This document shows, piece after piece, positions 20,540 to 52,948 of a stretch of 64,000 nt of DNA. Source of the DNA: Eunapius fragilis (Eukaryota; Porifera; Demospongiae; Spongillida; Spongillidae); contig OY811990.1 of NCBI GenBank assembly GCA_963681505.1, forward strand, positions 5,820,708-5,884,707, in the 5' to 3' direction. The translations under genes were made by a program, and so were the position numbers. Each line of letters begins with the position of its first letter. The first letter of the stretch is position 1. Under the pieces are notes generated by a model. The model did no database searches, had not been told where the DNA came from, and saw only the letters and a list, made by a program, of their open reading frames with translations.

Positions 20540-21008
20540 TCCATCCTGTCACCCCGTGTCTTGACAACGAACTTTGTGCTGCATTGCAGCAAGCTTATAC
20601 TGATAGCACACACACACACCATAGAGGTAACGAAGAACGGGCACACAAACACACATACATCCACAAATCTATGCACGCCTAGGCTTTTAGACCGTCACAC
20701 TTGAGAGCCCCTGCTCCACAGAATTCTTAACATAGCCATCCTTAGCTGACTCTGACCTCCCAACGCCCATGGCGCTTGAACAGTCTATCTGGCACCCCAG
20801 CATTAGCTGCAGCTGTTGCTCCCCCAGCTCGCATGCCAAACAACTTGGGGTCCATGCCCAATTGCTCAATCTTGGCCAAAATAACTCAACTCAAAAGACT
20901 GTAACTCAAACGACCCTCTTTTCTAAGCACTTGCCACTCTTAGTAGATACAATAGCCTTAAACAACATGTCTGATGTGTGAGACAAACCTGCCATGCTAA
21001 AATATTTC
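20540..21008. repeat. Direct repeat R2 flanking kinase fragment
   Basis: Second copy of the repeat at 19,311-19,779, in the same orientation and nearly identical, which implies a recent duplication or gene conversion. Confidence 0.9.
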
Positions 21009-21930
21009 TGCATCATACTCACAGGGCATGTGGGTGTGCCAGTACGTGCATTAACAAGGGATGCCCCCTCCCTGTACTAATCTCTGTTTTACTGGATACA
21101 ATATTAATAACCATGTGTTGCTCATCAAAGGACACATCCTAACATTTTAGCTTTATTAACTCATCACAATGGAGAAAACACAATTTCCTTACCTTGCTAG
21201 CACCGGGTCCCGTGAGGTAGCTTCTTGAAATGCTGCTCAAGCTGAATGTAGTTCCAGCTTATGATATTCTTCAATCTCTTCATTTCTTCATCTGGACGTT
21301 CCATGACCAATAGTAGCCTTTACAATGCATCCGTATTTGCATGTGAATTCATGTTTCTGTAGAGGAATAACCAGAGAGCCACACTTAAGAGCCTTGCAGC
21401 TGTTACTGCAGGTAGGCTTTTCGCTGGGTGTGGGTTGGATGTGAGAGGCTGGTCATCTGATTGCCCAATACGTATTGCTGGAACCGCTTAATCCCCCCAT
21501 ACCAATGCCTTTTCAAATTGCGAGTACTTCTGTTTCGAGTCAGACAATGTCCATGATGCAAAAGATATGTGTTCTCCAGGCCCATTATGAGGAAATACAG
21601 CCCCTAGCCCATACACACTGGGATCACAAGCACCAGTGGTCAGTTAGGAATAGATTGGGTTCTTCTAAGGCAGTCATCAGTTTAGATTTGACATGTGAAT
21701 AAAATTTTAGCTTTGTGGGAATAAGATTGTATCATTCTGAAATCATCTACGTGATTGTGAATAAAATTCAGTAGGTCTATTCTATTTTTGTATTGTCATT
21801 GATACCTTGTTGCCTTTCTTATAAAGAATGCTTAACAGTCAGTTGTCCAATCGTTTTCACTAGAAAAAAAAAGCCAATTAAGAAAATTATAAACATTGAT
21901 ACCTTTAGTGCTAGTTATTTCTAAGCTCCT
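21009..21930. other. Non-coding stretch, nothing recognised
   Basis: Only short ORFs without recognisable domains, in AT-rich sequence. Confidence 0.4.
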
Positions 21931-21935
21931 GATGT

Positions 21936-22128
21936 GACTGATCCCATCACTAAGGTTATAATCCTGGTGGTGAAGACCCAGCAAGCCGTCTAGAGTACGT
22001 GCAGTGATTTGTACGTGATTTGTTCATCCACACGGACCTGTTTGACACTACCAAGAAGGTATTGGCTGCCGGCTTGGTTGTTATGGTGTATGTGCTTGGA
22101 GCTGCATACAGGATCAGTGTGGACAAGG
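21936..22128 (-). pseudogene. Duplicated segment related to 32,580-32,790
   Basis: This ~190 bp segment matches 32,580-32,790 at high identity (shared GATCCCATCACTAAGGTTAT and GGCTGCCGGCTTGGTTGTTA). In the other copy, the minus-strand translation contains LDGLLGLHHQDYNLSDG, which looks like an extracellular beta-sandwich repeat. Here the frame is interrupted, so it is probably a duplicated exon remnant. Confidence 0.45.
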
Positions 22129-22280
22129 ACTGTCCGACTGCGGGTGATATGGCGTTGTGCGGGTCTTTTTAATCTGCAACAGACGACTTACTACTCTCAT
22201 AACGTCAGCTTCAAACTCTGACGTCCTTGATCGGAATGGAGCTATAGAGGAATAGAAAATCTACAGAAGAACTCGTCAAT

Positions 22281-22640
22281 TTATTTATCTGCAACCGTTA
22301 CCGCCTCCTGGTTGGGTATTGCGTAAGCGTCCACCCACTTGGTGAAGTAATCTGAAGCCACAAGTATGTACCGATTGGTGGTCTCCCCGGGAGATATAGG
22401 TCCCACTATATCTACAGCTACTATTTGCATAGGGTACCCGGTACTAACCTCACGTGATGGTGTTTTCCTTCCGGCACATTTAGGGCACGAACTACACCAC
22501 TCCTGCACATCCTTAGCATGTCCCGGCCAATAGAACCGTTCTTTGAGACTCAATATATCTTTTCTGATAGCTGCTGGAGCTACCACCTGCAAATGAATTT
22601 TACCCTGGTTGTTTTCATAGCGCCTACACAGTATACCATC
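22281..22640 (-). mobile_element. Fossil Ty3/Gypsy-type integrase fragment
   Basis: The minus strand carries an integrase remnant: the zinc-binding H2C2-type segment followed by the start of the catalytic core (pattern near WCSSCPKCAGRK and VDIVGPIS). No LTRs, reverse transcriptase or other parts were found nearby. It is an isolated, broken and clearly old fragment. Confidence 0.8.
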
Positions 22641-23470
22641 TTTTAGTACTAATTGTTCCCAGTGCTGTACTAAAATGCTCAGTTCTTTACATTTCCCTTC
22701 TAACTATGAATGAGGTGTTGCTATGATTCCTCTTGTATGACATGTTCCCCAACCAGAGAGCTAGGGACGTAGGGATCACTGCCAGCAAGCCTTATCTTCA
22801 GCTGAAGTGGGATCTGCAGAGATGATGTCAGGCAGGTGCTGATGATGTCATAGTCCATCGCAAGGGATTCCTTACTGTGACATAGTGGCCTCCTATGACC
22901 TCATACAGGGCGAGGGATTCTGCTGAAGATATGAAGTTATCCCGTAGGCTATCGAAGCAGGAATAGAGGAAAACATGGTTCTAGCTGAAGTTTAAATATT
23001 ATTTTTTATTTTAATCTTTAATCTCCAGGGCCAGGTCCTACGCGTAGGACCAAACTTTCAACATTTGTTCTAACTTGAAATAAAATAATCTAGCATCCAT
23101 GTCTTCATTGTTCTGTGATGTCACATCATACTTAATTTAAATATTAATTTTAACGTGATTGAGGTGGCCTGAAATACCTGTTAAATATTTTATTGTTGCA
23201 GAAAAATGTATGACAACTGTAGGTTTTTAAAAATGATTTATCTAGCTTGATGTGTGTGCTACTTTACAAAATCTTTGGCAGTTCCATATCCAATCAGTTT
23301 TGCCATTTTCTACTGACGATGCAGTACTCCTTACATGCATTTAGCTATATTTTCAAAACAAAACCTACTGACCAGAAAGCACATATATTGAGATGATAAT
23401 GTTAATTAACTACAGTCCAACTCTGCCTAAATGGCTTTTGAAGCAATCTCGTGTACAGCATCCATACAGG
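22641..23470. other. Non-coding stretch, nothing recognised
   Basis: AT-rich sequence without a convincing exon. It separates the integrase remnant from the piggyBac-derived gene. Confidence 0.4.
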
Positions 23471-23591
23471 TCATTCTCTCCAATGTTTGAGCATCCTACA
23501 CAATAATATGATGTCTTTGCTGAACATATCCTGCACTTCCGTTGCTTTCGACCAGTTGCACCACTGTATGAAGGGGTGTGTTTTACAAAAT

Positions 23592-26500
23592 CTAGTCGAT
23601 GGCATACATCGATCTGTATGCAGTAAACAAATTATGCCACCAACTATGAGTGTACCATTGTCGCTCAAACGCCAAGGACCCCTGGCGGTAGTGATTGTGC
23701 ACATCTATAGCACCAAAGCAGCTGAAAATAAGTTCTATTATTGAAGGTCGAGAGATCTCTTTATAGTAGGTAACTGTTTCATACATTCCATCTTTTTCCA
23801 CCTTCTTGTGTAGTTTACGTTTTCTGGGATTCCCAGGAAGGGTCGTACCTGCATTTGAAATAATGGTCTTCAACTTTCTGTCTTTCCAACTAAGTGCATA
23901 CATATTTGTGTTCTGTGGTGCAGATGGATCAATTAATAAAGTATCTCGTACTGCCCAAACATGCCCATGAGGTAACAAAGACTGCTTGTGGCTGGTAGGA
24001 TGGTCAATATCTGCAGAAGGACCAGGTACATCATCGCTGTTAAACATAAAAAATATACATGTACGTGAACTTTGCATCATGTATACATTGCATACTTGCA
24101 TGCATATACATGTAATGTATAGTACAGTAGCGGTCAAAATAAAGTTTCCGTAACGTGCAGTTTTACGGAAGCCGTAAAGTGTGATAATTAACGTGCGGTT
24201 CCCGCGGTCGTTAAAATAAACTGATTAAACCACGCCACCACAAAGGCGTCACGACGGTTAAATTATGTAGTCCGTTTAAACGGCAAGTAGTCGTAAGTAA
24301 CGGCGTAAATAAAAAACGGCGATGATAACGCCGTTTTATGTGCACGTGCTCGCTTCCCGACTCGTCGCCTGTGCTTTTTCAAAATGGTTTACTCCCACTA
24401 CCAAAAGCTGCGTATCCTGTTCTTTTTTTCGAAAGGTTTAAATCCACCTGCCATTTTAAAACGCCTAGAAGAAGAAGGCATGTACGCAACTAGGCAAGGC
24501 ATATTGAAGTTTATCAAGAAGTTCAAATCAGATGGCACTATTGGAAGAAAGCCTGGGGGTGGACGTAAGTCGAAGGTAACGGCGGAAGTAAAAGCCATCG
24601 TTGAAGAGCAGATGAAGAAGGATGATGAAACAACTGCGTCGCAACTGCACGCTCTTTTGAATGCTCGGGGTCATTACCTATCGTTTAGAACGATACTTCG
24701 GTGCAGAAGTGCTTTGGGCTGGACCTTTCGCGGAAGCGCATACTGCCAGATGATACGGGAGCCAAATAAACTGAAGAGACTGGATTGGGCAAAACTACAC
24801 CTGCACGAGGCTGAAACAGGATTCAAGGACGTGCTCTGGACGGATGAGTGCACAGTGCAGCTGGAGTCACATCGCCGCTTCTGCTGTCGCAAGCGAGGAG
24901 AGCCACCCAAAAACAAACCTAGGTACAGTTAAATATCGTATCATGTATTACATTTGCAAATTTATTTATAGGGCTAAACATCCTACCAAAGTTCATGTCT
25001 GGGCAGGTATCAGTATTGAAGGAGCAACAGGAATCTGCATCTTCGATGGGATCATGAAGGCTCCATTATATGTTGAAATCCTGCAAGATACATTGCTACC
25101 ATTTTTATCAGATATCCTTCCCCACAGCCATCGTTTTATGGCAGACAATGACCCAAAACACACGTCACGGCTGGCTCAACGGTTCATCTCGGACAATAGG
25201 ATAAACTGGTGGAGAACGCCTGCAGAGTCACCGGACTGCAATCCCATAGAGAATCTGTGGCATGAATTAAAGGAGTATATGAGAAGAGAAATCAAGCCGC
25301 GAACAAAAGATGAGCTTATTGCTGGTATAATTGCATTTTGGCATACTGTAGATAAAGAGAAGTGCCAGAAATATATTAGACATCTGAGGAAAGTTATACC
25401 TAAGGTCATTGAACTCAATGGTGCTGCAACTGGTTATTGATTATTTTGCATATACATGAACACGTATAAATAAGACTGATTTTTTTGGAATGTCCACCCG
25501 GCACTGTACCAATCATATGGGAGGGAAAGTTTGTGCATGACATATCTTAGGTGCCTATTATTTTAAAAAGGAGGCAGTTTGTGGCTTGTTGGAAGAAGGT
25601 GCTTTCTTTTATTTTTAAACAAAGGTGGTTTGTTTCACTGTCTTTGTGCCTAACATAGAACAAATATTTACTTGTAGCTGTGCTGATTAGCAAACATTCC
25701 ACACATCCTTATAGGGAGGTGTTTGTGCAGTGATCTAATGCCTATCAAAGGGGAGGAGGGGGTTTTGACATAAGGATGCCTATCAAAGGGGAGGAGGGGG
25801 TTTGGGCGTCCTGATGCCTATCAATGGGGAGGAGGTAGTTTGGGCGTATAATGCCTATCAAAGGGGAGGAGGGGGTTTGGGCATCCTGATGCCTATCAAT
25901 GGGGAGGAGGTAGTTTGGGCGTACTGATGCCTATCAAAGGGGAGGAGGGGGTTTGGGTGTCCCGATGCCTATCAAAGGGGAGGAGGGGGTTTGGGTGTCC
26001 TGGTGCCTATCAATGGGGAGGAGGTAGTTTGGGCGTATAATGCCTATCAAAGGGGAGGAGGGGGTTTGGGTGTCCTGATGCCTATCAATGGGGAGGAGGT
26101 AGTTTGGGCGTATAATGCCTATCAAAGGGGAGGAGGGGGTTTGGGTGTCCTGATGCCTATCAAAGGGGAGGAGGTAGTTTGGGCGTATAATGCCTATCAA
26201 AGGGGAGGAGGGGGTTTGGGTGTCCTGATGCCTATCAAAGGGGAGGAGGGGGTTTGGGCGTATAATGCCTATCAAAGGGGAGGAGGGGGGTTGGGTGTCC
26301 TGATGCCTATCAATGGGGAGGAGGTAGTTTGGGCGTATAATGCCTATCAAAGGGGAGGAGGGGGTTTGGGCGTCCTGATGCCTATCAATGGGGAGGAGGT
26401 AGTTTGGGCGTATAATGCCTATCAAAGGGGAGGAGGGGGTTAGGGTGTCCTGATGCCTATCAATGGGGAGGAGGTAGTTTGGGCGTATAATGCCTATCAA

Positions 26501-29500
26501 AGGGGAGGAGGGGGTTTGGGTGTCTTGATGCCTATCAAAGGGGAGGAGGGGGTTTGGGTGTCCTGATGCCTATCAATGGGGAGGAGGTAGTTTGGGCGTC
26601 CTGATGCCTATCAAAGGGGAGGAGGTAGTTTGGGTGTCCTGATGCCTATCAATGGGGAGGAGGTAGTTTGGGTGTCCTGATGCCTATCAAAGGGGAGGAG
26701 GTAGTTTGGGCGTACAATGCCTATCAAAGGGGAGGAGGGGGTTTGGGCGTCCTGATGCCTATCAATGGGGAGGAGGTAGTTTGGGCGTATAATGCCTATC
26801 AAAGGGGAGGAGGGGGTTTGGGTGTCCTGATGCCTATCAAAGAGGAGGAGGGGGTTTGGGTGTCCTGATGCCTATCAAAGGGGAGGAGGTAGTTTGGGTG
26901 TCCTGATGCCTATCAAAGGGGAGGAGGTAGTTTGGGCGTACAATGCCTATCAAAGGGGAGGAGGGGGTTTGGGCGTCCTGATGCCTATCAATGGGGAGGA
27001 GGTAGTTTGGGCGTATAATGCCTATCAAAGGGGAGGAGGGGGTTTGGGTGTCCTGATGCCTATCAAAGGGGAGGAGGTAGTGTGGGCGTATAATGCCTAT
27101 CAAAGGGGAGGAGGGGGTTTGGGTGTCCTGATGCCTATCAATGGGGAGGAGGTAGTTTGGGCGTATAATGCCTATCAAAGGGGAGGAGGGGGTTTGGGTG
27201 TCCTGATGTCTATCAATGGGGAGGAGGTAGTTTGGGCGTATAATGCCTATCAAAGGGGAGGAGGGGGTTTGGGTGTCCTGATGCCTATCAATGGGGAGGA
27301 GGTAGTTTGGGCGTATAATGCCTATCAAAGGGGAGGAGGGGGTTTGGGCGTCCTGATGCCTATCAATGGGGAGGAGGGGGTTTGGGTGTCTTGATGCCTA
27401 TCAATGGGGAGGAGGTAGTTTGGGCGTCCTGATGCCTATCAAAGGGGAGGAGGTAGTTTGGGTGTCCTGATGCCTATCAAAGGGGAGGAGGTAGTTTGGG
27501 CGTATAATGCCTATCAAAGGGGAGGAGGGGGTTTGGGTGTCCTGATGCCTATCAAAGGGGAGGAGGTAGTTTGGGCGTATAATGCCTATCAAAGGGGAGG
27601 AGGGGGGTTGGGTGTCTTGATGCCTATCAAAGGGGAGGAGGGGGTTTGGGTGTCTTGATGCCTATCAAAGGGGAGGAGGGGGTTTGGGCGTCCTGATGCC
27701 TATCAAAGGGGAGGAGGTAGTTTGGGTGTCCTGATGCCTATCAAAGGGGAGGAGGTAGTTTGGGCGTATAATGCCTATCAAAGGGGAGGAGGGGGTTTGG
27801 GTGTCCTGATGCCTATCAAAGGGGAGGAGGGGGTTTGGGTGTCCTGATGCCTATCAATGGGGAGGAGGTAGTTTGGGTGTCCTGATGCCTATCAAAGGGG
27901 AGGAGGTAGTTTGGGCGTATAATGCCTATCAAAGGGGAGGAGGGGGTTTGGGTGTCCTGATGCCTATCAATGGGGAGGAGGTAGTTTGGGTGTCCTGATG
28001 CCTATCAAAGGGGAGGAGGTAGTTTGGGCGTATAATGCCTATCAAAGGGGAGGAGGGGGTTTGGGCGTCTTGATGCCTATCAATGGGGAGGAGGTAGTTT
28101 GGGCGTCCTGATGCCTATCAAAGGGGAGGAGGTAGTTTGGGTGTCCTGATGCCTATCAAAGGGGAGGAGGTAGTTTGGGCGTATAATGCCTATCAAAGGG
28201 GAGGAGGGGGTTTGGGTGTCCTGATGCCTATCAAAGGGGAGGAGGGGGTTTGGGCGTCCTGATGCCTATCAATGGGGAGGAGGTAGTTTGGGCTTACTGA
28301 TGCCTATCAAAGGGGAGGAGGGGGTTTGGGCAACTACTCAGAGGGATTGAGAGATTTTTTTAAAAAGGATTTACTAAAGCTGTGCTGATTGGTAGTTATT
28401 TGACACATAAGGGAGGTGTTTGTATGATCTAATGCCAATCAAAGGGGAGGTGGCTTTGGGTGTACTCATGCCTAACTGATGCCAATCAAAGGGGAGGTGG
28501 GGGATTGGGGCTTGTCACTAGGTGTATTTAACATGCATGCTAAATTCACTAACTGCTACATATACACATTGCAAAAAACTACAGCCAGAATCACTACACC
28601 ATGAAAACGCGGTCTCACTTTGGCCTTAAACGTTTGCAACTTTGTTGGACAGCTTCCATACACTTTTTCCAAAGATCTTCAAAGCCAACAGTGTTATTCC
28701 AATATTGTGGAAGCTGTTGAAACATGATATCCTTTAAATATTGAAGTTCCCTAACAGGTAGTGCATGCAGAGTACCAGTTCCAAAAGGTGTGCATCGTAT
28801 CATAACGTCATCTCCAAATATAGCTTCTCTTGCTAACTTTTGGGCTAAAGTAGGTGCCTTTCCCTCACCTTTAAGCTTAGAATTTTTAATTAGTACTACC
28901 TCCACAGAAGATAGGCGCTCTTTCTGTATAGCAGATGAGGGTAGAGGTTGTCCAGGAGGCACATCTTTGCCCTCTGCTGTCCCTTGAGGTGGTTGTACAG
29001 AGGAGGACTGAGATGATGCACTACCACCCAGGGCCAGTTGGGCCAGTATGGAAGACATTGGTGACTGAGATGGAATAGAAGTGCCCATTGCTAGTTGAGG
29101 TGGAGCAAAAGACATTGGTGACTGAGATGGTAAAGAAGTGTAAGGTGGTATAGAACTGCTCAGTGCTGGTTGAGGTGGAACAGACGACATTGGTGACTGA
29201 GATGGTACAGAAGTGTAAGATGGTATTGAAATGCCCAGTGCTGGTTGGGTTGGAACAGAAGACATTGGTGACTGAGATGGTATAGAACTGCCTAGTGCTG
29301 GTTGAGATGGAACAAAAGACACTGGTGACTGAGATGGTACAGAAGTGTGAGATGGCATAGAAGTGCCCAGTGCTGGTTGAGGTGGAACAAAAGACACTGG
29401 TGACTGAGGTGATAAAGTACTGCCCAGTGCCAGCTCGAATGGTGCAGAAGTGGATACTGGAGATTCAGACAGCGTAGGAGCTTCAGTAATGGATGTTGAA

Positions 29501-31772
29501 TAGTGAGGTGCAGCCAACAGTCGAGGGGCAAATCTGGATGGTGTGAGAATGTGCCTTGTTGTTTGAACAGATACTTGTTCGAGTGCAGTTAATCTTTTCA
29601 CTAAGTTGTCAATTAGTTGCTCCACTTTGGTAAGACGATACTGAAGATCTTGAACAGTTGCTTGCAGCAATATGCGGTCCTGTAAACCTGAAATGTTGTG
29701 TTTGCTACAAGGTAGTGATTGTGCAACAAAAGCACCTACCAGGTAATGAAATGTCAGAATCAGATGAGTATGATGAGAGTGATGAGGATAATTGTTCACC
29801 ATCTAAATACAAAAATAGTAAAGTAATGTTTATACATGTAAATCAAGATTTTCTTGCCATACTGCTTACCTCCAGCTGATGTATATGTAACACCATTAGG
29901 TTTGGAAACAGTGCCTGTAGCATGTTTGCTAATCGCAGAGCCTTTTGGGTATAAATGTACATGTTCATTATAAAGTATAGAACTCTAAATGTTACATACC
30001 TCCTGCATCTGTCACCGCTGCTGTGGATGGTAGATTAGAACTATAAACTAACATTCATTTTTACTAGAGCAAATTAGTCTTACCTTTTTCATGTAAAGCA
30101 ATTTGCAGGATTTTTCCCACAGCAGCAGGTTTCCTAGGCTTCTTTTTGATAGCATCACTACCCTTCTTGCTGCCCTTTCCTTCATTTGCTTTAAATTTCT
30201 TTACTCTTTTTGGTGGTGACTGCTCTTCCATCTTCTCTACATCCTCCTCTTGCACCTTCTCATCATTTGCATCCTTATTCTTTTTCCCTCTATTATCATC
30301 CCTCTTTCTTTGCACTGACTGCTCTTCCATCTTCTCTAAATCCTCCTCTCGCACCTTCTCATCATTTACATCCTTACTCTTTTTCCCTCTATTATCATCC
30401 CTCTTTCTTTGCACTGACTGCTCTTCCATCTTCTGTACATCCTCCTCTTGCACCTTCTCAAAAGGTGTGTAGGTACCATCAATAAAGCCTTCCTCAAGAG
30501 CTGCCATCTCATCCTTGGTACCTATATACATGTATGAGTGACAAATTTTAACATGCCCGTTTTTTCTAATACAGTCTACCCTCGATATAGTCCGTGCTAC
30601 GGGAACCCCCAAACTAGCGGACTGTAGGACAAACGGATAGTAGCGATGCGAAGTTTAGCTTACGAAGGGTTAGTAGTTGGCAAGAAAAATAGCGGACATT
30701 ATCGCGGATGGACTGTATCGAAGCGGACACTATCGAGGGTAGACTGTAGCAATAGAATCAAATGCGGTAGGCTTATGTAAACTGTGGTTTAACTATCAGA
30801 TGTTTCCTTGGTTACGCTATTAAGTAACAGCAATGCATCTTGTCACCTCGCAGATATACATTTCTATCGTAACATAAAGCTAGGTTAGATGCACGTGCGT
30901 GTGCTTGTGCATATATGCGCTTGCTTACCTTTTGCCAAAATCTTTCCAACATACTCCTTTCTGTGCACCTTCACCTTACAGTTCTCACCGATCTTATCGG
31001 ACGACAACGTGTCTCCAGATACTACTGACACCGACTCTTCATCTGGCCAGTGAACTAAATAGTAATTGTCTATACATGGTGACAGGTGGGTATATTAAAA
31101 CATCGGTAGACAATCCTTTTTCTCTTACCGGATTGAATTATCTTCAGCGATCTCCTAAGGCTGGTTGGGTTCATCTTGATGCGTCAATAATCAAAAACCG
31201 TTCTCGAGCGTAAATATCAACGCCGTTACGATCACACGTCAAATGTAACGCCGTTGAAATATACGCCACGTGTGTGCGTGCGCATACAATAACGTAACGG
31301 GCGTTCAACGGTTTAAGAACTAATTAAAACGCCGTTCTAATACCGCGCGGTTTCTATAATTGCACAACGCCGTTTACGTGAAACTGCACGTTACGGAAAC
31401 TTTATTCTGACCGCTACTGTATGTCGCGCATGCAAGTGCGTACCGTTGAGGTTCGCCGCTCTTTTCGTCCGTGGAAGAGTCTTTACTCCCATCTTCACTA
31501 TCATCTGCTGGCAAAGGACTGTTTTCATCTACCTGAAGTACTTCACGGGGCTTTTTCTTTACCTTTCTAGGCGCTGAGGCTTTTAGCTGCCCAAAGACAT
31601 GCGGCAAACAAATGGCTTTTGTAGATTTTGTCGTGGAGCCCCCGTCTTCCCACTGCACTACATACTTTTTATTATGTGGAGTGCTAGAGACCTGCCTTAT
31701 AACCCCCTTCTTTCCATAGTTCTTCTTTATCTTCACGACGATATCTGTGCCTACTCGAAGTTGACCCGCCAT
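23592..31772 (-). CDS. PiggyBac-derived (PGBD-like) two-exon gene, split by a transposon
   Basis: Exon 1 (31,772-31,444) starts MAGQLRVGTDIVVKIKKNYG and has a small basic, possibly KOW/Tudor-like module (KYVVQWEDGG) and an acidic tail. Exon 2 (24,036-23,592) encodes the C-terminal part of a DDE_Tnp_1_7/piggyBac-type transposase (YALSWKDRKLKTI, FGAIDVHNHYRQGSLAFER, THSWWHNLF). The junction is GT/AG and phase-compatible, giving 257 codons to a stop. The N-terminal and middle catalytic region of a piggyBac transposase is absent, so it cannot be an active transposase; it is either a decayed copy or a domesticated C-terminal fragment. Almost the whole intron is the 7.3 kb Tc1/mariner-type element; without it the intron would be about 110 bp. 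More piggyBac-like residues lie in another frame just past the stop (to about 23,470). Confidence 0.65.
24125..24169 (+). repeat. Left terminal inverted repeat of the two-gene element
   Basis: Starts CAGTAGCGGTCAAAATAAAG, continues TTTCCGTAACGTGCAGTTT, and is preceded by the TA target site. It matches the right terminus in inverted orientation. Confidence 0.9.
24180..24345. promoter_or_regulatory. Left subterminal region with AACGCCGTT-like motifs
   Basis: One exact AACGCCGTT lies at 24,327-24,335. Related AACGGC or ACGGCG motifs lie at about 24,299-24,305 and 24,315-24,320, and ACGACGGTT further out. The region also spans the presumed transposase promoter. The same motif is repeated at the opposite end, which suggests binding sites for an element-encoded protein. 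Confidence 0.55.
24384..25440 (+). CDS. Tc1/mariner-type DD34E transposase
   Basis: Two exons, 24,384-24,922 and 24,972-25,440, separated by a 49-bp GT-AG intron that restores the frame (PR/AKHPTKVHVWAG), giving 335 residues, normal for the family. The N-terminal ~110 residues contain helix-turn-helix segments (PPAILKRLEEEG; basic RKPGGGRKSK linker). The catalytic triad is visible: Asp in WTDECTVQLES, Asp in MADNDPKHTS, and Glu in PDCNPIENLWHEL, with 34 residues between the second Asp and the Glu. Unspliced, the first exon ends at an early stop, so splicing is required. It would cut at the element TIRs and insert at TA. No inactivating change was seen. Confidence 0.9.
25739..28330. repeat. 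2.6 kb G-rich minisatellite with 37/38-bp units
   Basis: Tandem units of 37-38 bp, core TGCCTATCAAAGGGGAGGAG followed by GGGGTTTGGGTGTCCTGA or TAGTTTGGGCGTATAA. Many stretches alternate the two types, giving a 75-bp higher-order unit, so long ORFs appear on both strands by accident. The plus strand has repeated GGGG/GGGGG/GGG runs with G-quadruplex potential. Both flanks carry a related ~60-bp sequence (GGGAGGTGTTTGT...GATCTAATGCC) near 25,715 and 28,405. It lies between the 3' ends of the two genes of the element. Confidence 0.97.
28615..31174 (-). CDS. BEN-domain protein carried by the Tc1/mariner-type element
   Basis: Seven minus-strand exons: 31,174-31,129 (ATG); 31,054-30,929; 30,521-30,084; 30,020-30,000; 29,941-29,870; 29,802-29,740; 29,687-28,615 (stop). 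All introns are GT-AG and phase 1, and the exons sum to 612 codons plus stop. Domains in order: a small N-terminal module (HWPDEESVSVVSG, CKVKVHRKEYVGKILAKG) resembling the Tudor-like segment that precedes BEN domains in some animal proteins; a Lys/Glu-rich region with three ~33-residue repeats (EEDVEKMEEQS); a short coiled coil (LQYRLTKVEQLIDNLVKRL); a Pro/Ser-rich repeat region (SQSPMSSVPTQPALG-like units); and a C-terminal BEN domain (LAQKLAREAIFGDDVMIR to FEDLWKKCMEAVQQSCKRL). BEN domains bind DNA or chromatin partners. A role in transposition or silencing of the element is inference. A small MITE sits in intron 2. Confidence 0.8.
30572..30746. mobile_element. 175-bp MITE with TA target duplication
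   Basis: The ends CAGTCTACCCTCGATATAGT and ACTATCGAGGGTAGACTG are inverted repeats flanked by TA (30,570-30,571 and 30,747-30,748), as in Tc1/mariner/pogo-type MITEs. Inner segments also pair (CGGACTGTAGGACAAACGGA / TAGCGGACATTATCG). It is nested in intron 2 of the BEN-domain gene, so it arrived after that gene did. Confidence 0.85.
31200..31375. promoter_or_regulatory. Right subterminal region with four AACGCCGTT motifs
   Basis: Exact AACGCCGTT at 31,219-31,227, 31,247-31,255, 31,328-31,336 and 31,366-31,374, with near matches (AACGGGCGTTCAACGG, ACCGCGCGGTT) between. The region lies between the right TIR and the start codon of the BEN-domain gene, so the motifs could serve as transposase, BEN-protein or promoter sites. 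Confidence 0.6.
31376..31419 (-). repeat. Right terminal inverted repeat of the two-gene element
   Basis: Reversed, it begins CAGTAGCGGTCAGAATAAAG and matches the left end at 24,125; it is followed by TA. Confidence 0.9.
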
Positions 31773-31779
31773 TATTACA

Positions 31780-32450
31780 ACTATGTGGCTTTGCTTTATA
31801 CTGCATGTCTCGATCAATCACGTATAATAAGGAGGTTGTCCAATTTTTTGCTCTGAAAAGTATCACTGAAGACAATAGAGTTTTTATTCCATTCTTCTTG
31901 CATACTGTTTGCCCAAAATACTAACTTTTACCTGCGTCCTATGCGAGTTTGCTTTCATGAGTGCGTGCTTGAAATGATTGGTACAAATTCAAGTATTACG
32001 GTCTTGAATGATAGTACAGCAAATTCAAATGACAATAATCAATGGACGTTTGACAGTAACTAACCCCCTTAATGGACTTTTGACAGTAACTAACCCCTAC
32101 CTCGTTGTAGGCCACCAGAGAACCACTCCAGTCCATGAAGGGGACTCCCTTCCCAGCACATGAGGCTCATCCTCACACATATCTACCCAACTAAAAAATC
32201 TTAGATTAATAGCAGTATAATCTACTTTTTATTTAATATACTTTAAAACACGCTGACCCCCTGTCAAAGCTGGTCGACAAGATGTATTGGTGAGACAGAT
32301 GAATTGGTCCCCCAGAACAATACATCTTTAGATGAAATATGAGTTGTACTGTGCTCATTGTAGCTGTTATGACAACCAAAAATAGTGCATCCAATGAGTG
32401 CGCACCACAAGAGTAGAAGTAGGTAGTAGAAGTAGGTAGTCAACATTGTG
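31780..32450. other. Mostly non-coding; possible short exon
   Basis: A direct duplication of GACAGTAACTAACCCC lies near 32,045-32,100. On the minus strand, 32,101-32,155 reads like a short exon (KGVPFMDWSGSLVAYNE before a GTAGGG donor), possibly part of the extracellular-repeat gene at 32.6 kb, but the acceptor is unclear. Confidence 0.3.
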
Positions 32451-32459
32451 GCTTTGGCT

Positions 32460-32798
32460 AAAGAAATGGTGGCCGGCTAGGCACATCACGGTTACGTTGA
32501 TGGTCGTATGGAGCCCGCGGAGTGTGGGCAGGTTGTCGGTGATATCGATAATACCCACACCTACGATCATAGACTAGACTTGTTCCTGTGATCCCATCAC
32601 TAAGGTTATAATCCTGGTGGTGAAGACCCAACAAGCCGTCTAGAGTACGTGCAGTGATTTGTATGTGCAGTGATTTGTTCATCCACACAGACCCGTTCGA
32701 CCCTACCAAGAAGGTATCGGCTGCCGGCTTGGTTGTTACAGTGTATGTGCTAGGAGCTGCATACTGGATCAGTGTGGACAAGGACCACGTGTATCTGG
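32460..32798 (-). pseudogene. Extracellular-repeat gene fragment interrupted by a hAT element
   Basis: Minus-strand segments read like a beta-sandwich extracellular repeat (FLVGSNGSVWMNKSLHI, LDGLLGLHHQDYNLSDG, VGIIDITDN), but in two frames, so it is decayed or mis-spliced as read. A plus-strand frame is also open here, so strand is not certain. The sequence continues at 35,862 on the other side of the hAT insertion. A copy of the 32,580-32,790 part is at 21,936-22,128. Confidence 0.35.
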
Positions 32799-32806
32799 AC
32801 TACGGG

Positions 32807-35800
32807 CAGTGGCGTAGTGTGATAGTTGAGCGCCCGGGTACATAACGCCCTAATGGCGCCCCCCCCTCCCCCCCCCCCCCGCGCGCGCGCGCGCTATTCG
32901 TACCTGTGTGTTATATAACCGCTATTTTCAATCATTCACATGTATAATACACGGAAATGAAACTTGTTTCTTGCTATAGATATATTCGTCTGACTTTTGC
33001 TGATGCAAATGTGTCAATAACTTCATCAAAGTTAATACACTCCAACGTTTCTCTTTCTATACTCAATAGAGCAAGGTTGCTAAATCGATCTTGTCCCATC
33101 GACGAACGCAAGTAGGACAAAATTAGTTTTAATTTGCTGAAAGCGTTCACAACTGGCGATAGATACAGCAATTGTAAGCAATATTTGGAGTGAAATGCGG
33201 AGATTCGGGAATACATCATCTCCATATGATATGATAAATGACAGAAGTTCTATAGGAGTCTTTGGAGAAATATCGCCTCTATTATTAAGTAGCATCCTGC
33301 AATCACAAACTTCAGTAGAGAGGTCTTCCCCGTTTATGTCAGTGTCATAGAATTTTCCTAGCTCAACACAATGATTATGGTGAGCAAGGGCATAATTGCT
33401 ATTCAGTAAATTTGTCACATCAAGTAGAAAGCCGAATTTAGAATTCATGTCATCCAATCGCGAGAAACGTGTTAAAATCTCTTGGTGGAGCCTGTCAAGA
33501 ATGCTTCTTAAAACTCGCTTAATCTCCTGTTCGGCAGTTAGTCCGGCATCCAGAGACAATTCATCAGGCATTCGTCGTCTTCTCCTAATCCGACGCTCCA
33601 CATCTATTCCCCAATCTGTGCATCGTATCTTTGCATTCTCTATAGCATCAAGGCACAATTGGTCACCATCAGTGGCAAGGTTATGTTGCAAACCATTCAG
33701 GTCAGCTGCAGCATCCTTAAAATTCATGCTTGGATCCTGCAACCTCTTCTGAACACGATCTAGTTTTCCAAGAATTGTGTTCCAAAATTGCAACAAAACA
33801 AAAAATTCAAATTTCAAAATCGCTGCTAACAGAATCTGTGCTTCACTTCTGGTATCATGTGTCATGGTTGTATCATCGAATAACTTTTCAAGCAATCCCA
33901 CCAATTCATCTAGACCAATACAAATTGCTTTCACAGCCTCTGCACGTGAACTCCATCGAGTTTCACATTCCCGCTTCACTACAAGTGGAAGCACATTTTT
34001 CAGCTCTTCCCACCGTAGGGTTGAGGCCGAGAAAAACGTATAAATTTTTTCGATTGTTCCAAAAAAGGTCACAACAATTGGATCCTGTTTGGCAGAGTGC
34101 AGTCCAGCTTAGTTCAAACTGTGATTGTCACAGTTTAGAAACAATGCACGGTGATTTCTGGCACATATCCGTTGTTGAAGACCTGATATATGACCAGCCA
34201 TTACAGATGCATTATTGTAGCACTGTGACCTGCAATCACCCAGAGGTCTTCCGTCAGATTCCGAACGCTCCAGAATGACCTTCTCGAGGGTAGAGGCATC
34301 TTTTGAATGCAACTCTATAAAACCCAGAAACACTTCTTTGATACAGACTTTCTTGCATACAAAATTAATGTCAACAAACCGAATTACCTGTGATCACTGC
34401 TCCCGATGGGCAAGATCAGGTGTTGAGTCTACGAGTAAACCATAGTACTTGCTTTTTATGATGTCTTGTACCAATCGATTTCTTACACTGTTTGCAAGAA
34501 TACTGATAAATTCGTTCTGAATATCTGGGGATAAGTATGAGACAGACTTAGGATTGTCTCTTGCATATTTCAGATGTTCTGAAATAATAGGATCATATTG
34601 ACCAATCAGTTTCAGGAGAGAAAGGAAGTTTCCCGGATTATCACAGTCATCGCTCAATCGTTCTTCATGACCACGTAGTGCTAAGTTTTGGGAAGCAAGA
34701 TATTTGATACACGCTAGCATAGTTTTTAAAACTTCTCGCCATCGCTGTTTTTCAGATAGAATCATCGCTTCAGTGCAAGCATCAATCCCTATACCAGAAG
34801 TTATTCTTCGCTCTGCTTCTTTCCACATTGTAAACGATTTGCGATGACTAGGACTGTTCTCATGTAAGACTAATTTTTCTGGCTTCTTCCATTTGCTGAA
34901 CCCAGTACCTAATTCAAAAGCCGATCTGCAATTAGCCGATGAGGATGTAAACAATAAACAACAAAAGCAATATGCAACTTTATTTAGTGGTGAATATAAT
35001 AACCAAGAGCGGTTCACAATACTTCCATTGGCAAGGTGACGCTGAAACCAAAAGCGCGTCATTGAACGTTCGCCAGTTGACGTGGAAAAGGGACCGCAGG
35101 CATTCTGAAACATAATTGACCCTGTTTTTATCATTTCATCTCGTAGGGACTGTGGTATGACTGAAAGATGTGAAACTGGATCGAATGTCAAATGGCCAAC
35201 GTCATGATAACTTATAATGTCAAGTGTGCTACCAGATCTGCACTCCACAGAGGTAATATTGCCTAAGAAGGAACTTGCATCGTCCAATGTGCTAGTGGAG
35301 TTATCTTCATTAATTGAGTCATGATTGTCGTCGTTCATTTCAATTTCATTTGCGTCAGTGGATGTTTCAGACCTGAGTTTATCATCCTGAAAATGACCAC
35401 CATCTGATTCTGCAGAAAAAGGCTGCTTCCTGAGAAAACCCTCCATCATTTTTCTGCATTTTGCTGCTTCACTCTCTAGTACCTTCCTTCTTTTGCGACT
35501 TTGAGCTCCGCTACGTTTCATTCTCTGAGCCGGTCCTTCCCTAAGCGCTCACAAGTTATCTGGCGATCCGAGATTCCGAACTGTAAAAGCGTGACACTGT
35601 GTATTAAACAGAATATGAAGGTGTCGATTGTGTACCGTATCTTCTATGTCCAGGATTAGAAAGGAATTTAAAAGTTTGCGTGCATGCGCAGATGTTTACC
35701 TTCTTACCTTATAGGTGGCATTAAGTGCCCGTTCGGCGTTCGCGACTTTGCGTTGGCGAGATAATTAATTATCTCTCGTCTTTTTGGCGCCCCCTTATCC

Positions 35801-42311: not shown

Positions 42312-45203
42312 ATGTTGAGATCGTCCGAACAAGACGACGTACGTAGCAGGTAAGCTCAAACACCCATTAACAGATATGTACTATAATTTGCTATACGAAT
42401 GGTCCCCCTAGTTATGGGCACAGCATAGGCGTCGGCTCATTTATTTCCGTCCCAACTCTGCTAGATATTATGTGGTCTACTATTTGCTGCTGCACAAGAA
42501 CTATTGCCTTGTGGTATTGTTAAGGCTTCAAAGCCATCGCGCACGAAGTCATTTAACAATAGGTGTTTTCTGATCACTTTTTTGGGATTTTTTTACTCAC
42601 GAAACGTACGTTGCCCAGTGATCAACTAGAGGCTATTCTATAACCATACTAGAATTGTTTAGTCAGTTGCCAGCTATAAATTGTCAATTGTGCTTTTCTA
42701 ATGTGATTTGGTCGTCGTCGAACCGGGTCGTTGGTGGGCCCGAAACCCTTGAGGTTTTCTTTGGCCAGCTTCACTAGCGGTGTGTTAAAACTACCTTCAA
42801 CCTCCAGGACCGAGACAATAGCATTTCGAACACCTCAAATAGTTTACGGAAATCAAAACGCACATGAAATCCCTAATCTTTATCGTTTCCAAGTGGAGGG
42901 GGGGGGGGGGGAGGTGGAGGTGTGGGAGTCTAGGTAAAGAATGATTGACCTAGTACTGTCTCTTCTTCCTATGGTATCAATTCATGTTCTTGTTTTTTAT
43001 TGTTCCAAGATCTGGCCTCTTCCCCCCACACACCATATGTCAGCTGTGCTCTAAGCCCTACACAGACCCTAGGATCCTTCCATGTCTACACTCTTTCTGT
43101 GGGCAGTGTCTGCATATGGAGATAGAGAGGTCTGGGGACAAGCAGAAGATGGAGTGTCCTACCTGTCAGAGAAGTATCACCATACCAGAGGGTGGAGTCA
43201 ATGCTATACCTCAGAACCTCCATCTTGGCTTTGAGGTGGAGGTGACTGGGTACATGTCCAAGATTGGCAGTGGTGGTGAAAAGTCATGTGATGCTTGTAT
43301 TGATGGGGACAAGGGGCCTGCAGTGGTGTTCTGTTGTACATGTGGTCAGTTCCTCTGTACCTTCTGTCATGATTACCACAAACATTTCAAAGCATTACAT
43401 CATCACCAGATAGTAACACTAGACCAGGAGTCTGTCAGACTACTTCCTTCCATCATGACACCAACTGAACATCTCTGCTCCCAACCTCATCATGACAAAA
43501 AGAAGTTAAAGTTCTTTTGTGAGACCTGCCAGTGTCTGGTCTGCAGAGACTGTACCCTAGTCCTTCACAAGGACCACAGGATTGCTGAGGTGTGCAATAT
43601 TGCAAAGGTCCACAGAGATGGAATGAGAGAGTCACTTGTGTGTGCACAGGAAATGGCCTCAAAGCTGACCAGTGCCATTGGTGCCAATGACAAGATGGCA
43701 GAACAGGTTGAGACTTCCAGAGAGAATGCCACACTGCTCATTAACCAAACCTTTGAACAGCTCCACCAAGCCATTGAGGAAAGGAAGAAGACACTGTTGT
43801 CAGAGATGGAGGCCATTTCACTTTCCAAGACAACAGCTCTGTCCCTCCAGAAGGAACAGTTAGTGAAGATACAAGATGAGATTGGTGGCTACACTGAGAT
43901 GACCTCCCACATCCTCCAGACCCACACTGACAATGAGGTGGTAGCTCTTGGAGGTCTGCTACCCACTGAACTGAAGGCCACCCTGAAGAAGGTTGGGGGA
44001 GTCTCCCTCACTCCCAGTCAGTCCAGTGACATACATGTGACCCTACAAACTGATTCTCTGATGAAGGAACTCTCCATATTTGGTCATGTAACGGCCTCAC
44101 CTCCATCTCCATCACAGAGCACATGGTCTTCTAAGTCAGCAGCCAGGATAGACAAGGTGTATAGTGTAAAAGTGGAGACCAAGAGCTCAGAGGGAGAGAG
44201 GTACCCATATGGTGGTCTGCAGGTAAAGGCTGAGCTGAGGCCCAAGTCACATGATGGAGCAGTTGTCCCAGGAAAGGTGGAGGACCATGGAGATGGTACC
44301 TACACCATCACCCTCACCCCTCAGGCTGCTGGTCCTCACCAGCTCCTCATCACAATGGATGGTGAACATGTCCAGGGCAGTCCTCATGACGTTGATGTGA
44401 GGCCTAGCTACAGCACCTTATGTAACCCCCAGCAAGTTATCAGTTGTAGTGGTGCTCCATATGGTATTGCCATCCATGACAGTGGAGACATCTATGTAGC
44501 CAGTAATGATAGCATTATTCATGTGTATGACCAAGGTGGTCATGAGAAGAGAACCATAGGTAGTGGTGGGGGTGGTGATGGTCAGTTCAGCACACCTCAT
44601 GGTATATCCATCAAGGGAGATGTGATGTATGTTGCTGACACTGCCAATCATTGCATTCAGAAGCTCACAACAGGAGGACAGTTCCTACTGAAGTTTGGCC
44701 AACATGGATCAGGTCAGGGACAGTTTAACTACCCAGTATCAGTTATTGTTGACCAAAGAGATAGGATGATTGTTGCTGACCAAAACAGGGTTGTGATGAT
44801 GGATCAAAATGACATCTGCCTATTGACCATAAATGGAGATGTCTCTGGTGCTCAGGGTTTTAAGAATCCATATGGCCTTGCCTTGGACCCTCAAGGGAAC
44901 ATCCATGTTGCAGCCTGGGGTTCTAACACCATCAAAGTCTTCACACCAGAGGGAACCTACGTCAGATCATATGGAGATGTAATGGGTCCTTCTGGAATAG
45001 CAATTGATGAAAAAGGTTACAGCCTTGTCTGTGAGGAGAATGGCAATTGTCTCTCCATCTTTGATCCTCAGGGAAACAAGATCCACACAGTTGGCAATCT
45101 CACTAATCCCTGTGGTGTTGCTCTGGATCCTATAAGTGGTAGTCTGTATGTAGCCAACTATGGTGCTAAGACTGTATTGAAGTATTGTGTAGTGGTAATG
45201 TAA
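42312..45203 (+). CDS. TRIM-NHL protein (TRIM2/3/71-like), unit 1
   Basis: Proposed first exon 42,312-42,349 (MLRSSEQDDVRS), GT donor, then exon 2 from 43,010 to the stop; the phase-2 junction reads RSGLFPPHTICQLC. Total 743 residues. The start at 42,984 is likely artefactual because it lies in the intron. Domains: RING (CQLCSKPYTDP to ECPTCQRS, residues ~20-70); two B-boxes (SCDACIDG...FCCTCGQFLCTFCHDYH and LCSQPHH...CRDCTLVLHKDH, ~110-215); B-box C-terminal coiled coil (~215-350); a filamin-type Ig domain (KVEDHGDGTYTITLTP, ~400-480); and NHL beta-propeller repeats (GGDGQFSTPHGISIKGDVMY, then four or five more, ~490-740). The family are cytoplasmic E3 ubiquitin ligases and RNA regulators. 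It is the first gene of a tandem cassette. The other large intact copy is at 53,292-55,911. Confidence 0.92.
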
Positions 45204-45355
45204 TGATGATGTCATGTTTTGATGTAATGATGATGTCATGTAATTATGATGTCATAGTGTATGGAATTGAGCCTTAGTAAGGCTGTGGGAATGAGATTAG
45301 GAACATGGTAAGAATGTTTGACCGAGGACATGACCCTACCTCAGGGGTTAAACAT
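45204..45355. repeat. Shared 3' flank of TRIM-NHL units
   Basis: TGATGTCATG-rich sequence, then GGCTGTGGGAATGAGATTAG to about 45,385, recurs after the unit-3 gene (55,912-56,110). It helps define the duplicated cassette. Confidence 0.8.
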
Positions 45356-46960
45356 AACATATCCCCAATGACCCTGTGTACCCTGACCTCTCCTCCTTAG
45401 AGCGGTGGACAACTATTGGAAAGATGTCAGACTTAGTAAGACTATTGAAAGCATTTGTGATGGTCAATGTAAGGCTCACCTCCTGGAAGAACATACTGTC
45501 TGCATCGCTTAGGACCACTCCATGGGATATGGGGACAGGGGGCTGGCCTTGGGTGTAGAGAAAGGTGATATTGGGTGTGGTCACCTCAGGTGGCTCATTG
45601 TTGATGACTATCACAATCACCACCACCTTAACCGCATTACTGGCACGCCCAGTCACTCCAATAGAGGCTGTCCTGGGGACCAGGCTCTGGTTCATCTGTG
45701 GTATTGTGGTACTGTGCAGACCTGAGAATGGACTGGTATGTGGACACTGGGGCGGCACCTGATACCACCAGGACACCTGTGATGGGGTCATATCGCTGTG
45801 TGAGGGATGGATAGGAGCTGATGTCCACTGAGGCATTGTCACCAGAGGAGGCAGGTATTGGGGTAAGGGAGATGGTGGCATTGCCGATCAGGAAGTAGGC
45901 ATTGTTGTCCAGATCAGAGAGGGTGAGGCTTGGGGAGACCAGGGGGACAGGAGAAGTGCTATCCTCTGTGAAGTTGAATGACGTCAAGGAGTTGCTAGTA
46001 ACAGGGTTGTAGGCATCAAACAGCACAATATGAACCTCAGTCTGAACTGTTGTCACAATGGTACCATCATCCACCTCAATGGTGACATAGCGCGTACTGT
46101 TATCTATCTCCACGGCAACGTCACCATACACCACCTGTATCAGAAGTGCCTGGAAGGCTTCAATAGTCACATTATTGGCATCATCAGAGTACATGTGGAG
46201 GTACGAGTACGGTTCACCACTGTCATTGACGTAGATGTATCTGTCCAGTAGGATCTTTTCCTGTGTATGGTTAACAGAGACGATAGCCAGCGTATCATTA
46301 ACCAAAGTGACGGCAGAAGAATTGAGAAGTCCAATGGATTCAGCATCTATATCTTTGGGGTTAAGTACCAGCACAGTTATGGACACAAGGTAAGCATTGT
46401 CAGTGTCAGTAAGTGAAACAAACTGGGGCTTTACGATCTGCACATAGGGACTCAGCTGAAGGTAGTCCACACTGAGGTATGTCCCACTACCACTGCCCGA
46501 TATCCTGACAGCAGTAGGGTCATCCACAGATATGACCTCAATGGTGGCAGTCCCAATGACTCCACTGAACTCATCAGTGTCGCTAAGGTTGTAGTAAGAA
46601 GCATCAATCCCATACCTGCCAGACTTCCCCCTGGCAACCCCAGTGTTGTCCCAGCCAAGAATGGTGATGTAAGGGACATCAGAGGCTGGTCTGTAAAACC
46701 CCCTGGTGTCCTTGAGTGTGTTGACGTTCCACACAGGCAGGAATGGTATGCGACAGTCTCCAGCGAGGAGGGTGGCCTTCTGTACCAAGGGGTCCTTGGG
46801 TACCACCACACCATAGTAGATGTTCCCCACAAACGTCAGCCATGTTTTGGACTGGGGACACCACCACTGCCACACCCCATACCTCAGGTCCACGCCCACC
46901 ACTGCCACTGAAAGCTCCGTGGATAACCCCTCCCCCTCAACTACACCATACAACTGCTGT
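45356..46960 (-). CDS. Cadherin-like/Ig-like extracellular repeat protein, fragment A
   Basis: A minus-strand 438-codon ORF (46,953-45,637) followed by another (45,881-45,348, other frame) encodes beta-sandwich repeats of an extracellular protein. Each repeat ends in a strand like ATIEVISVDDPTAVRIS or VVIVIVINNEPPEVTTPN, and there are many N-glycosylation sequons (NNVTIEAFQ, IDNSTRYV, YHNTTDEP). The pattern resembles cadherin-like or bacterial-Ig-like tandem domains; I cannot name the family. No signal peptide or membrane segment is visible. A one-base frame change is needed around 45,650-45,700, so the copy is damaged or contains a sequence error. It lies convergent to the upstream TRIM-NHL gene, as the related fragments do in the other units. 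Confidence 0.65.
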
Positions 46961-47216
46961 GGGTGTGGCCTACCTTAACACATTGCTATGGCAACATTAA
47001 TGGAGGCAGGTAATGTAGTAGTCACCCATCAGATGCCAGTCCCCAGACCTAATGGTCTTTGGTATCCTATACTCCCTTCCAGGGTACATGTCTAGTGCTA
47101 CAGATCTCTCTGGTCTCCTGGTGATGGTGGAGGTGATGATTACATCATGCCCCACTTGGAGGCGGGGTGGGAGGCATACGTAATGTACATCACAATGGAA
47201 AACATCTGTAGGGCTT
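46961..47216. other. Junction region between cadherin-like and TRRAP fragments
   Basis: No exon recognised. It ends abruptly in the middle of a TRRAP exon, so a rearrangement breakpoint lies near 47,216. Confidence 0.4.
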
Positions 47217-47991: not shown

Positions 47992-48149
47992 GTACATTAG
48001 GGGAGGGAGGGAGGGAGGGAGGCATGGTGAGGGTATGAAGAAGAGGGAGGGATCTGACGACCACACCAATGTCCCCCTTCACCCCACCCTTCCTACACTA
48101 CTTTCATATCACACCTCTCCTTACCTTTCCCCCCAGGTAGCCTGCTCTA

Positions 48150-48655: not shown

Positions 48656-48997
48656 CCATGTGTTATCTAGATGGTCTACTTCTAAGCCCAAGAGGGCTGG
48701 GACATTCTTTGCCCCTCCAAACTGAGCTGTGTGGTATACCAGACCTTCAATATTACATGTATCAATATCTGTGATGAATAAAAGTTTATATTTGTATGAC
48801 GCTAACTATGATGAAAATGAAAGTGAGATATTTTGTAAGATTACTTTCAGGTGATTTACGTACATAGCAGCCGCTGCCGCTACACTATACAATTCTTCGT
48901 TACTTCAGTTCTCAGTCTAGTGCCAAAGGACCACGCCCTCTCGTAAGCCCTGCACATATGGGCGTGGCGCATTACCATATTCGAATATCGCGTCACG
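48655..48997. repeat. Shared 5' flank of TRIM-NHL unit 2
   Basis: Second copy of the flank described at 41,964-42,311. Confidence 0.85.
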
Positions 48998-50688: not shown

Positions 50689-50739
50689 TGGTGATGTAAT
50701 GATGATGTCATGTAATGTCATGTTTGCATAGTGTATGGC

Positions 50740-51960: not shown

Positions 51961-52097
51961 GTATTATCAGAGAGGTATTAGGTGTGAGGGTGTCAGGTGT
52001 TATGAGAGGGTGTTGTGTGACATGAGGGTGCTTGATGTTTTGTGAGGGTGTTAGGTGTGATGTGAGGGTGTTAGGTGTAATGTGATTTTATTGTGCT

Positions 52098-52910: not shown

Positions 52911-52948
52911 GCACATCAGTTCAAATGTGATGAGGTGTTCTCATAACA

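Follow-up and report, generated by a model that had tools for sequence, protein, structure and literature searches.

Tc1/mariner elements are the textbook one-gene transposons, and the locus described here raises the question of what a second, spliced gene is doing inside one of them. We analysed a 64,000-nucleotide stretch of contig OY811990.1 of the sponge Eunapius fragilis (hereafter the window), in which a 7295-bp element of Tc1/mariner type (24125-31419), with TA on both sides, holds two genes, one for a transposase and one for a BEN-type protein. The same pair recurs in about eleven diverged subfamilies of this genome, from which all genome-wide counts and copies reported below are taken. 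The reading we favour, an old two-gene Tc1/mariner lineage whose BEN-type protein would bind the CpG-rich ends as an oligomer and act there against silencing in a VANC-like manner, has in our estimation an even chance of being correct.

The boundaries of the element are marked by inverted arms of 48 nt that are 94% complementary and include the TA on each side (24123-24170 and 31374-31421). An exact 12-mer of the terminal inverted repeat (TIR) occurs 164 times in the genome, compared with nine occurrences of the reversed control. When joined over one TA, the flanks gave a query that matched three contiguous empty sites, on C18, C2 and C9, at 89-93% (query positions 1-383), and a single TA stands at the junction in both of the empty sites that were inspected; because the joined flanks match unbroken copies elsewhere, the insertion is real. 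Inverted ends, TA copies and empty sites together bear out the original prediction of a TA-flanked, TIR-bounded unit of 7.3 kb, and the start codons lie, as it had stated, about 0.25 kb inside the termini (259 bp for the transposase and 245 bp for BEN).

The transposase gene, on the plus strand, has two exons, one GT-AG intron and an open frame of 335 aa. Its product matches DDE_3 (PF13358) with an E value of 6.6e-21, above the curated cut-off, and 34 residues, counted on the alignment, lead from the second D to the E, both of which are invariant in all nine aligned sequences, so that the description of an apparently intact DD34E transposase holds. N-terminal matches to HTH_32 (E 2.8e-5) and HTH_Tnp_Tc3_2 (E 9.5e-4) are weak, both being below the curated cut-offs. 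The BEN-type gene, on the minus strand and tail-to-tail with the transposase, comprises seven exons and encodes 612 aa in an open frame. All six introns are phase 1 in the gene model used, as had been predicted, with alternative splice sites at exons 4 and 5 that also leave the frame open, and the boundary between exons 2 and 3 falls near the same residue in diverged relatives.

A search of the genome with the TIR and the BEN protein had been proposed beforehand, and copies holding the transposase only, together with a BEN gene present once in the host, had been named as the outcome that would refute a partnership. What we found were four further full copies that share both genes, at C9:4.50, C9:5.57, C9:9.36 and C2:6.87 Mb. 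The two genes move together, and the outcome favours the partnership and contradicts accidental capture. Both frames are open and all predicted splice sites intact in all five copies, the window's included. The transposases of the further copies differ from that of the window by 0-1 residues; their BEN proteins show 0, 1 and 19 residue differences in three cases, and that of the fourth copy (L041) is 26 residues longer. Spacer length among the five ranges from 1791 to 3362 bp. Three of the four further copies have flanks of their own, giving four independent insertions together with the window's. We rejected the C9:4.50 copy as an independent insertion, its flanks being identical to those of the window for the roughly 3.1 kb read on each side. 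Window positions 20980-34493 are repeated at C9:4495300-4509000 with an element whose length differs by 188 bp, in the spacer, and this repeat is a recent duplication or an assembly duplicate.

We read seven diverged loci whole or nearly so (C1:0.53, C1:0.54, C1:13.40, C3:10.88, C9:7.20, C9:2.14 and C11:7.50 Mb). Six of the seven combine inverted ends of 45-64 bp with stretches of both genes, and in five of the six a TA flanks each end; the C11:7.50 locus has no clear paired ends; stops interrupt the transposases of the C1:13.40, C11 and C1:0.53 copies. Further pairs with the same layout were read in part. TA stands on both sides in ten of the 11 two-gene elements that have both TIRs of this type (the C9:4.50 duplicate included), the C1:0.54 element having it on one side only. 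The N-terminal domain of the BEN protein recurs across subfamilies. In the most distant pair, L067 (C1:13.447 Mb), the transposase is about 40% identical, with a stop in the matched stretch, and the BEN gene lies tail-to-tail with it, its product scoring above the Pfam cut-off; the pair sits between 25-bp TIRs (CAGCGCCGTCCACC...) with TA on both sides, over about 5.3 kb, and a second, broken pair of this type is found at C2:7.115 Mb.

The convergent genes of the window element are separated by a 3174-bp spacer that is mostly minisatellite, a feature absent from the original prediction, as were the CpG richness of the ends and the short relatives described below. A spacer minisatellite is present in nine of 11 subfamily-level pairs, with units of 28 to about 150 bp (the spacers of L056, L057 and L059 being partial), and absent at C9:7.20 and L067. 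Among the eight spacers measured whole, array makes up 63-89% in six and 0% in two; by comparison, when 4390 segments of 700 bp were drawn at random from the window, 719 had more than 30% of their length in arrays. Tandem arrays are also found in four relatives that carry the same TIR and no BEN match (L043, L044, L045 and L047). These are 6-7 kb long, keep about 66 N-terminal residues of the transposase, show roughly 87-96% identity to L045 in long aligned pieces and contain an internal array with a unit of about 60-65 bp (about 65 bp in L043 by Tandem Repeats Finder, TRF).

A genome-wide census, restricted to matches with E<=0.001, returned 72 stretches, merged into 63 loci, with the BEN domain of the window element as the query, and at least 147 stretches, merged into at least 91 loci, with the transposase, these last counts being lower bounds because 120 of 443 first-look candidates were scored. 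Forty-five of the 63 BEN loci lie tail-to-tail with a related transposase within 9 kb, compared with a mean of 0.27 and a maximum of 3 under random placement (within contigs, 1000 trials, with rough lengths for C6, C18 and C23); some paired loci are near-identical copies of one subfamily, and the 45 pairs do not stand for 45 separate events. The transposase reaches residue 250 or beyond in 43 of the 45 and is N-terminal only in two, and several are fragments. Counted from the transposase side, 69 loci reach residue 250, of which 43 are paired and 26 unpaired. In all, 82 DDE_3 matches were found, 58 of them inside this transposase clade (41 paired), and none of the 24 places outside the clade has a BEN match within 20 kb. 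Three of the 26 unpaired transposases were inspected: L064 has one stop, with no TIR seen, L065 has five stops, and L066 is weighed below. Among viral contigs, two pattern searches gave 3 and 51 stretches, none of them a relative, and a further comparison yielded no stretch with enough conservation to serve as a query.

The comparison of the two proteins started from 22 pairs, of which two were dropped as too short; the remaining 20 were reduced to 12 representatives, and to 10 without the two multi-stop copies, two of the 10 carrying one transposase stop. Among these 10, the divergence of the transposase is correlated with that of BEN (Mantel r 0.71, P 0.0001), and seven have the same nearest relative for both proteins. 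Between the window element and C3:10.88, differences at codon positions 1/2/3 number 32/21/81 in 156 codons of the transposase and 34/22/76 in 107 codons of the BEN domain; we report these counts because synonymous sites between subfamilies are mostly saturated. The few unsaturated BEN comparisons gave omega values of 0.15-0.37, and the near-identical C1:13.40 and C1:0.54 copies gave 0.82 (transposase) and 0.37 (BEN), from a handful of changes. Both proteins have long been under constraint, which is looser for the BEN domain. Because the pairing recurs, the proteins diverge in parallel and both show an excess of third-position differences, we regard the element as part of an old, selected two-gene lineage. 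The functional partnership that the original prediction had proposed is supported by the paired loci of the census, by pairing in diverged subfamilies and by the constraint on both genes.

The ends of the element are distinguished by their CpG content. The observed/expected CpG ratio of the window background is about 0.33, and we would read this CpG-poor background as the usual sign of a methylated genome. The densest CpG patches of the 64 kb are the two ends of the element, and in six elements representing five subfamilies each of the 12 ends has 18-31 CpG per 300 bp; the median for the window is 4, with 18 or more reached in five of 188 background windows. In the interior of the element the ratio is 0.24 in the spacer, 0.21 in BEN exon 7 and 0.07 in BEN exon 3. 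This distribution suggests that the ends are paired CpG-island promoters. Among 448 palindromes tested in the ends of five subfamilies, the half-site palindrome AAC-N3-GTT was the most frequent, with 14 occurrences in 2550 bp of ends compared with 4 in 25114 bp of interior, and none of 100 shuffles reached 14 for any of the 448. We considered AAC-N3-GTT as a universal site and rejected it, L054 having none.

The DD34E transposase gene starts at one end of the element and the BEN-type gene at the other, and the two converge on the spacer. In the mechanism that we favour, the BEN-type protein, with its predicted layout of conserved N-terminal domain, charged region, coiled-coil-like stretch and C-terminal BEN domain, would bind the CpG-rich ends as an oligomer, in the window element perhaps at the AACGCCGTT sites. 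Once bound, it would activate the two promoters or keep them and the landing sites of the transposase open against methylation or silencing, and the transposase would cut and paste at TA. The role of BEN, whether as helper, regulator or counter-silencer, is something that we infer, and we advance only tentatively the proposal of a dedicated anti-silencing partner that recognises the paired CpG-rich ends, keeps them unmethylated and active although the genome is methylated, and has coevolved with them through many subfamilies.

Several observations weigh against the favoured reading. Other open reading frames (ORFs) of the window (RING/B-box/NHL kind) also have patches of 18-22 CpG upstream of them, a hAT-like ORF has one at its start, and CpG-rich ends are likewise seen in relatives that lack BEN; CpG-rich ends as a BEN-specific feature were rejected on these grounds, and because the patches are also upstream of other ORFs, they suggest promoters, not BEN binding. 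AAC-N3-GTT was chosen after looking, having first been noticed in k-mer counts. Eleven of its 14 sites come from two subfamilies, five from the window element and six from C1:0.54, where they lie partly inside an 11-bp tandem repeat; the C9:2.14 ends are without it, and k-mer tests on one subfamily at a time gave nothing significant for L049 or L054. Keeping the multi-stop copies (12 representatives) lowers the Mantel r to 0.36 (P 0.0054). C4_7.42 is clearly discordant, since only the transposase, and not the BEN, is nearest to that of the window, and the BEN domain evolves faster than the transposase (nonsynonymous divergence, dN, of 0.29 vs 0.17, window vs C3). Finally, the transposase of L066 (C9:2377500-2384700) is free of stops, and the 7.2 kb read there contain no BEN match; a TIR lies beyond the transposase start, and on the BEN side a 43-bp array of about 98 copies runs to the edge of the DNA read. 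Its BEN gene has been lost or displaced, leaving either a one-gene derivative or an element with a displaced BEN.

Tc1-like DD34E elements share with this lineage the TA target, TIRs starting with CAGT, a DDE_3 domain with 34-residue D-E spacing and short non-autonomous relatives; known ones are about 1.3 kb long with one ORF (PMC7325037), in agreement with what had been said of canonical Tc1 elements and unlike TBE/Tec, whereas the two-gene elements that we read are 4.6-7.6 kb long with a spliced second gene, the window's being 7.3 kb. Tc1/mariner elements with extra genes are already known in ciliates: TBE has three ORFs under purifying selection, one of them reversed, with short tandem repeats between two ORFs (PMC4724952), and such elements seem to depend on their partners. 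These are a 22-kD protein and a zinc-finger/kinase protein, with no BEN named (PMC4724952), and TBE/Tec further differ in their ciliate germline biology and in TIRs of about 80 bp or about 700 bp (PMC7325037). The window element has neither three ORFs nor these partners; it has two genes, the second being of BEN type. KolobokP resembles it as an animal DNA transposon with a DDE transposase and a second acquired protein, and differs in that this protein is a homing endonuclease, in its long terminal direct repeats and in its superfamily (PMC9587614). Among the titles listed in searches of the open-licence literature, with Repbase outside the scope, we found no BEN-encoding Tc1/mariner element described, which is not proof of absence, and nothing on a BEN domain with Amphimedon.

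Harbinger and Mutator/VANDAL elements depend on a partner protein, VANDAL being a Mutator-type element of Arabidopsis. VANC binds VANDALs in their noncoding regions and lifts silencing (PMC10398659; PMC5735166). The two systems may be alike in having a separate sequence-specific DNA-binding protein, noncoding target regions and fast-turning tandem repeats (PMC5735166; PMC10398659); the superfamily and the protein are different, and anti-silencing, which is shown for VANC, we infer here. The case for a VANC-like binding of the element by its own BEN protein is circumstantial, coming from the CpG-rich ends and the repeated sites. BANP and BEND3 bind unmethylated CpG, BANP by oligomerisation (PMC11472053). 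Together with NACC1 they share the BEN domain with the window protein, and BANP also has a coiled coil (PMC11472053); they differ in being host chromatin factors, and the window domain is too diverged for Pfam alone. If the anti-silencing proposal were true, animals would have in this lineage an equivalent of plant VANC made from a domain of chromatin factors, and host BEN genes might have come from the lineage or been taken up by it. That a long-lived Tc1/mariner lineage has kept a chromatin-type gene shows that these transposons can become dependent on a partner. Because the domain of the partner belongs to a group with CpG-island readers among its members, two questions can be tested directly on this lineage: whether DNA transposons of animals carry their own means of countering silencing, and whether BEN genes travel with transposons.

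The main rival to end-binding against silencing is a role as transposition helper, in which BEN would bind subterminal sites and assemble or deliver the transposase, with no silencing role, in the way that the Myb-like partner of PIF/Harbinger assembles or delivers the transposase at the ends. We consider this possible, if somewhat doubtful. The tight pairing and co-divergence of transposase and BEN are consistent with a helper, as are the palindromic sites near the ends of several subfamilies; these sites, however, are not universal, Tc1 transposases carry a DNA-binding helix-turn-helix half of their own and are known to act alone, and the same observations would also fit binding for transcription. 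That BEN domains are sequence-specific DNA binders (PMC7764960; PMC11472053) also argues for a helper.

We think it unlikely that the BEN protein regulates or represses its own element and so limits copy number, perhaps by closing both promoters. BEN proteins such as BEND3 do repress (PMC11472053), and repressor-like products may exist in this family, since L069 (C1:11480980-11481820) and L070 (C22:1423400-1424260) encode the DNA-binding half of the transposase only. Both are non-autonomous, measure about 770 bp and have this TIR and the TA sites, and both have an open frame of 169 aa that consists of transposase residues 1-124 and a new tail; 11 of the 22 N-terminal-only transposase loci end at residue 124 as these do. 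Their product is a possible natural repressor. Selection on the element would nevertheless not obviously retain a self-limiting gene across so many lineages.

Any of these roles would also fit a second protein that is not a true BEN and has instead another small helical domain with a chance likeness to PF10523, an alternative that we judge improbable. It is favoured by two further points against the reading we prefer, namely that the 612-aa window protein and its domain match no Pfam family, PF10523 included, at E<=1, and that PF10523 finds only three loci in the genome; sequence searches of PDB likewise returned no BEN chain. On the other side, we aligned 19 homologous C-terminal domains from the same genome over the full BEN domain (identical, shorter or stop-broken loci were left out), and seven of them match PF10523 at E<=1, the best at 1.5e-7; the next-best Pfam family is matched by two of the 19, with a best E value of 0.025. 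A transposase of this kind lies opposite the BEN stretch at two of the three PF10523 loci, and the alternative becomes slightly less probable because the most distant pair is TIR-bounded with a BEN above the Pfam cut-off. By homology, the window protein is probably a BEN protein, and we accept it as such with a reservation over the missing Pfam match of its own. Of the gene as originally predicted, the seven exons and the open frame of 612 aa stand; a Pfam BEN domain in the protein itself was rejected, the name coming from the seven homologues.

The trapping of a host BEN gene or nested unit once between inverted repeats, which the 18 of 63 BEN loci not tail-to-tail with a transposase within 9 kb and a BEN gene on C11 without a nearby transposase (L068) could suggest, was rejected as extremely improbable on the census pairing, which random placement does not explain, and on the recurrence of one layout in many diverged subfamilies with both genes constrained and diverging largely in parallel. 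L068 itself (C11:7575600-7581500) has a BEN stretch above the Pfam cut-off, with no transposase match nearby, that is 59% identical to the BEN of L067, and is possibly a host gene related to the BEN of the transposon.

Table 1. Features of the two-gene element, in window coordinates.
Feature	Position	Strand	Basis
Whole two-gene Tc1/mariner-type element	24125..31419	.	inverted ends, empty sites, four further copies
Left TA target-site copy	24123..24124	.	single TA in two empty sites inspected
Left TIR, starts CAGTAGCGGTCA	24125..24170	+	inverted-repeat comparison
CpG-rich transposase-side end, 28 CpG, observed/expected 2.12, likely promoter	24125..24383	+	CpG count
AACGCCGTT site, left end	24327..24335	.	
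Transposase exon 1 (DNA-binding half, first catalytic D)	24384..24922	+	gene model, Pfam
Transposase intron, GT-AG, 49 bp	24923..24971	+	gene model
Transposase exon 2 (second D and E, 34 residues apart)	24972..25440	+	gene model, alignment
Minisatellite in spacer, 38-bp unit, about 69 copies (about 2.6 kb)	25738..28331	.	repeat search
BEN exon 7: coiled-coil-like start (by eye), P/S/Q-rich repeats, C-terminal BEN domain, stop	28615..29687	-	
BEN domain stretch used as genome-search query	28618..28983	-	
BEN exon 6	29740..29802	-	gene model
BEN exon 5 (acceptor uncertain)	29870..29914	-	gene model
BEN exon 4 (splice sites uncertain)	30000..30047	-	gene model
BEN exon 3, charged region with 99-bp repeats	30084..30521	-	gene model, repeat search
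Short inverted-repeat unit, BEN intron 2 (arms 25 nt, 92%)	30570..30748	.	inverted-repeat comparison
BEN exon 2, conserved N-terminal domain	30929..31054	-	gene model, relatives
BEN exon 1	31129..31174	-	gene model
CpG-rich BEN-side end, 29 CpG, observed/expected 2.42, likely promoter	31175..31419	-	CpG count
Stretch with four AACGCCGTT sites (31219, 31247, 31328, 31366), BEN-side end	31219..31374	.	
Right TIR (about 46 bp each)	31374..31419	-	inverted-repeat comparison
Right TA target-site copy	31420..31421	.	single TA in two empty sites inspected

The 179-bp unit in BEN intron 2 (window 30570-30748) starts TACAGTCTACCCTCGATATAGTCCG and may be a pogo-type short element, which it resembles. 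The surroundings of the element look like a piggyBac-type transposase gene, the match being weak (DDE_Tnp_1_7, E 0.0045, below the cut-off). A 37-bp minisatellite of about 146 copies extends over 5.4 kb at window 2932-8341, and the window holds three further arrays with units of 36-38 bp, that of the element included. On the minus strand, a hAT/ZMYM-like region with a CpG-rich start occupies 33080-35548 (DUF4371, E 7.5e-11; hAT dimerisation, E 0.0019, below the cut-off). On the plus strand, 42954-57132 is occupied by a cluster of RING/B-box/Filamin/NHL-type ORFs, of which two are long and open and others partial, the Pfam search covering 42954-45203.

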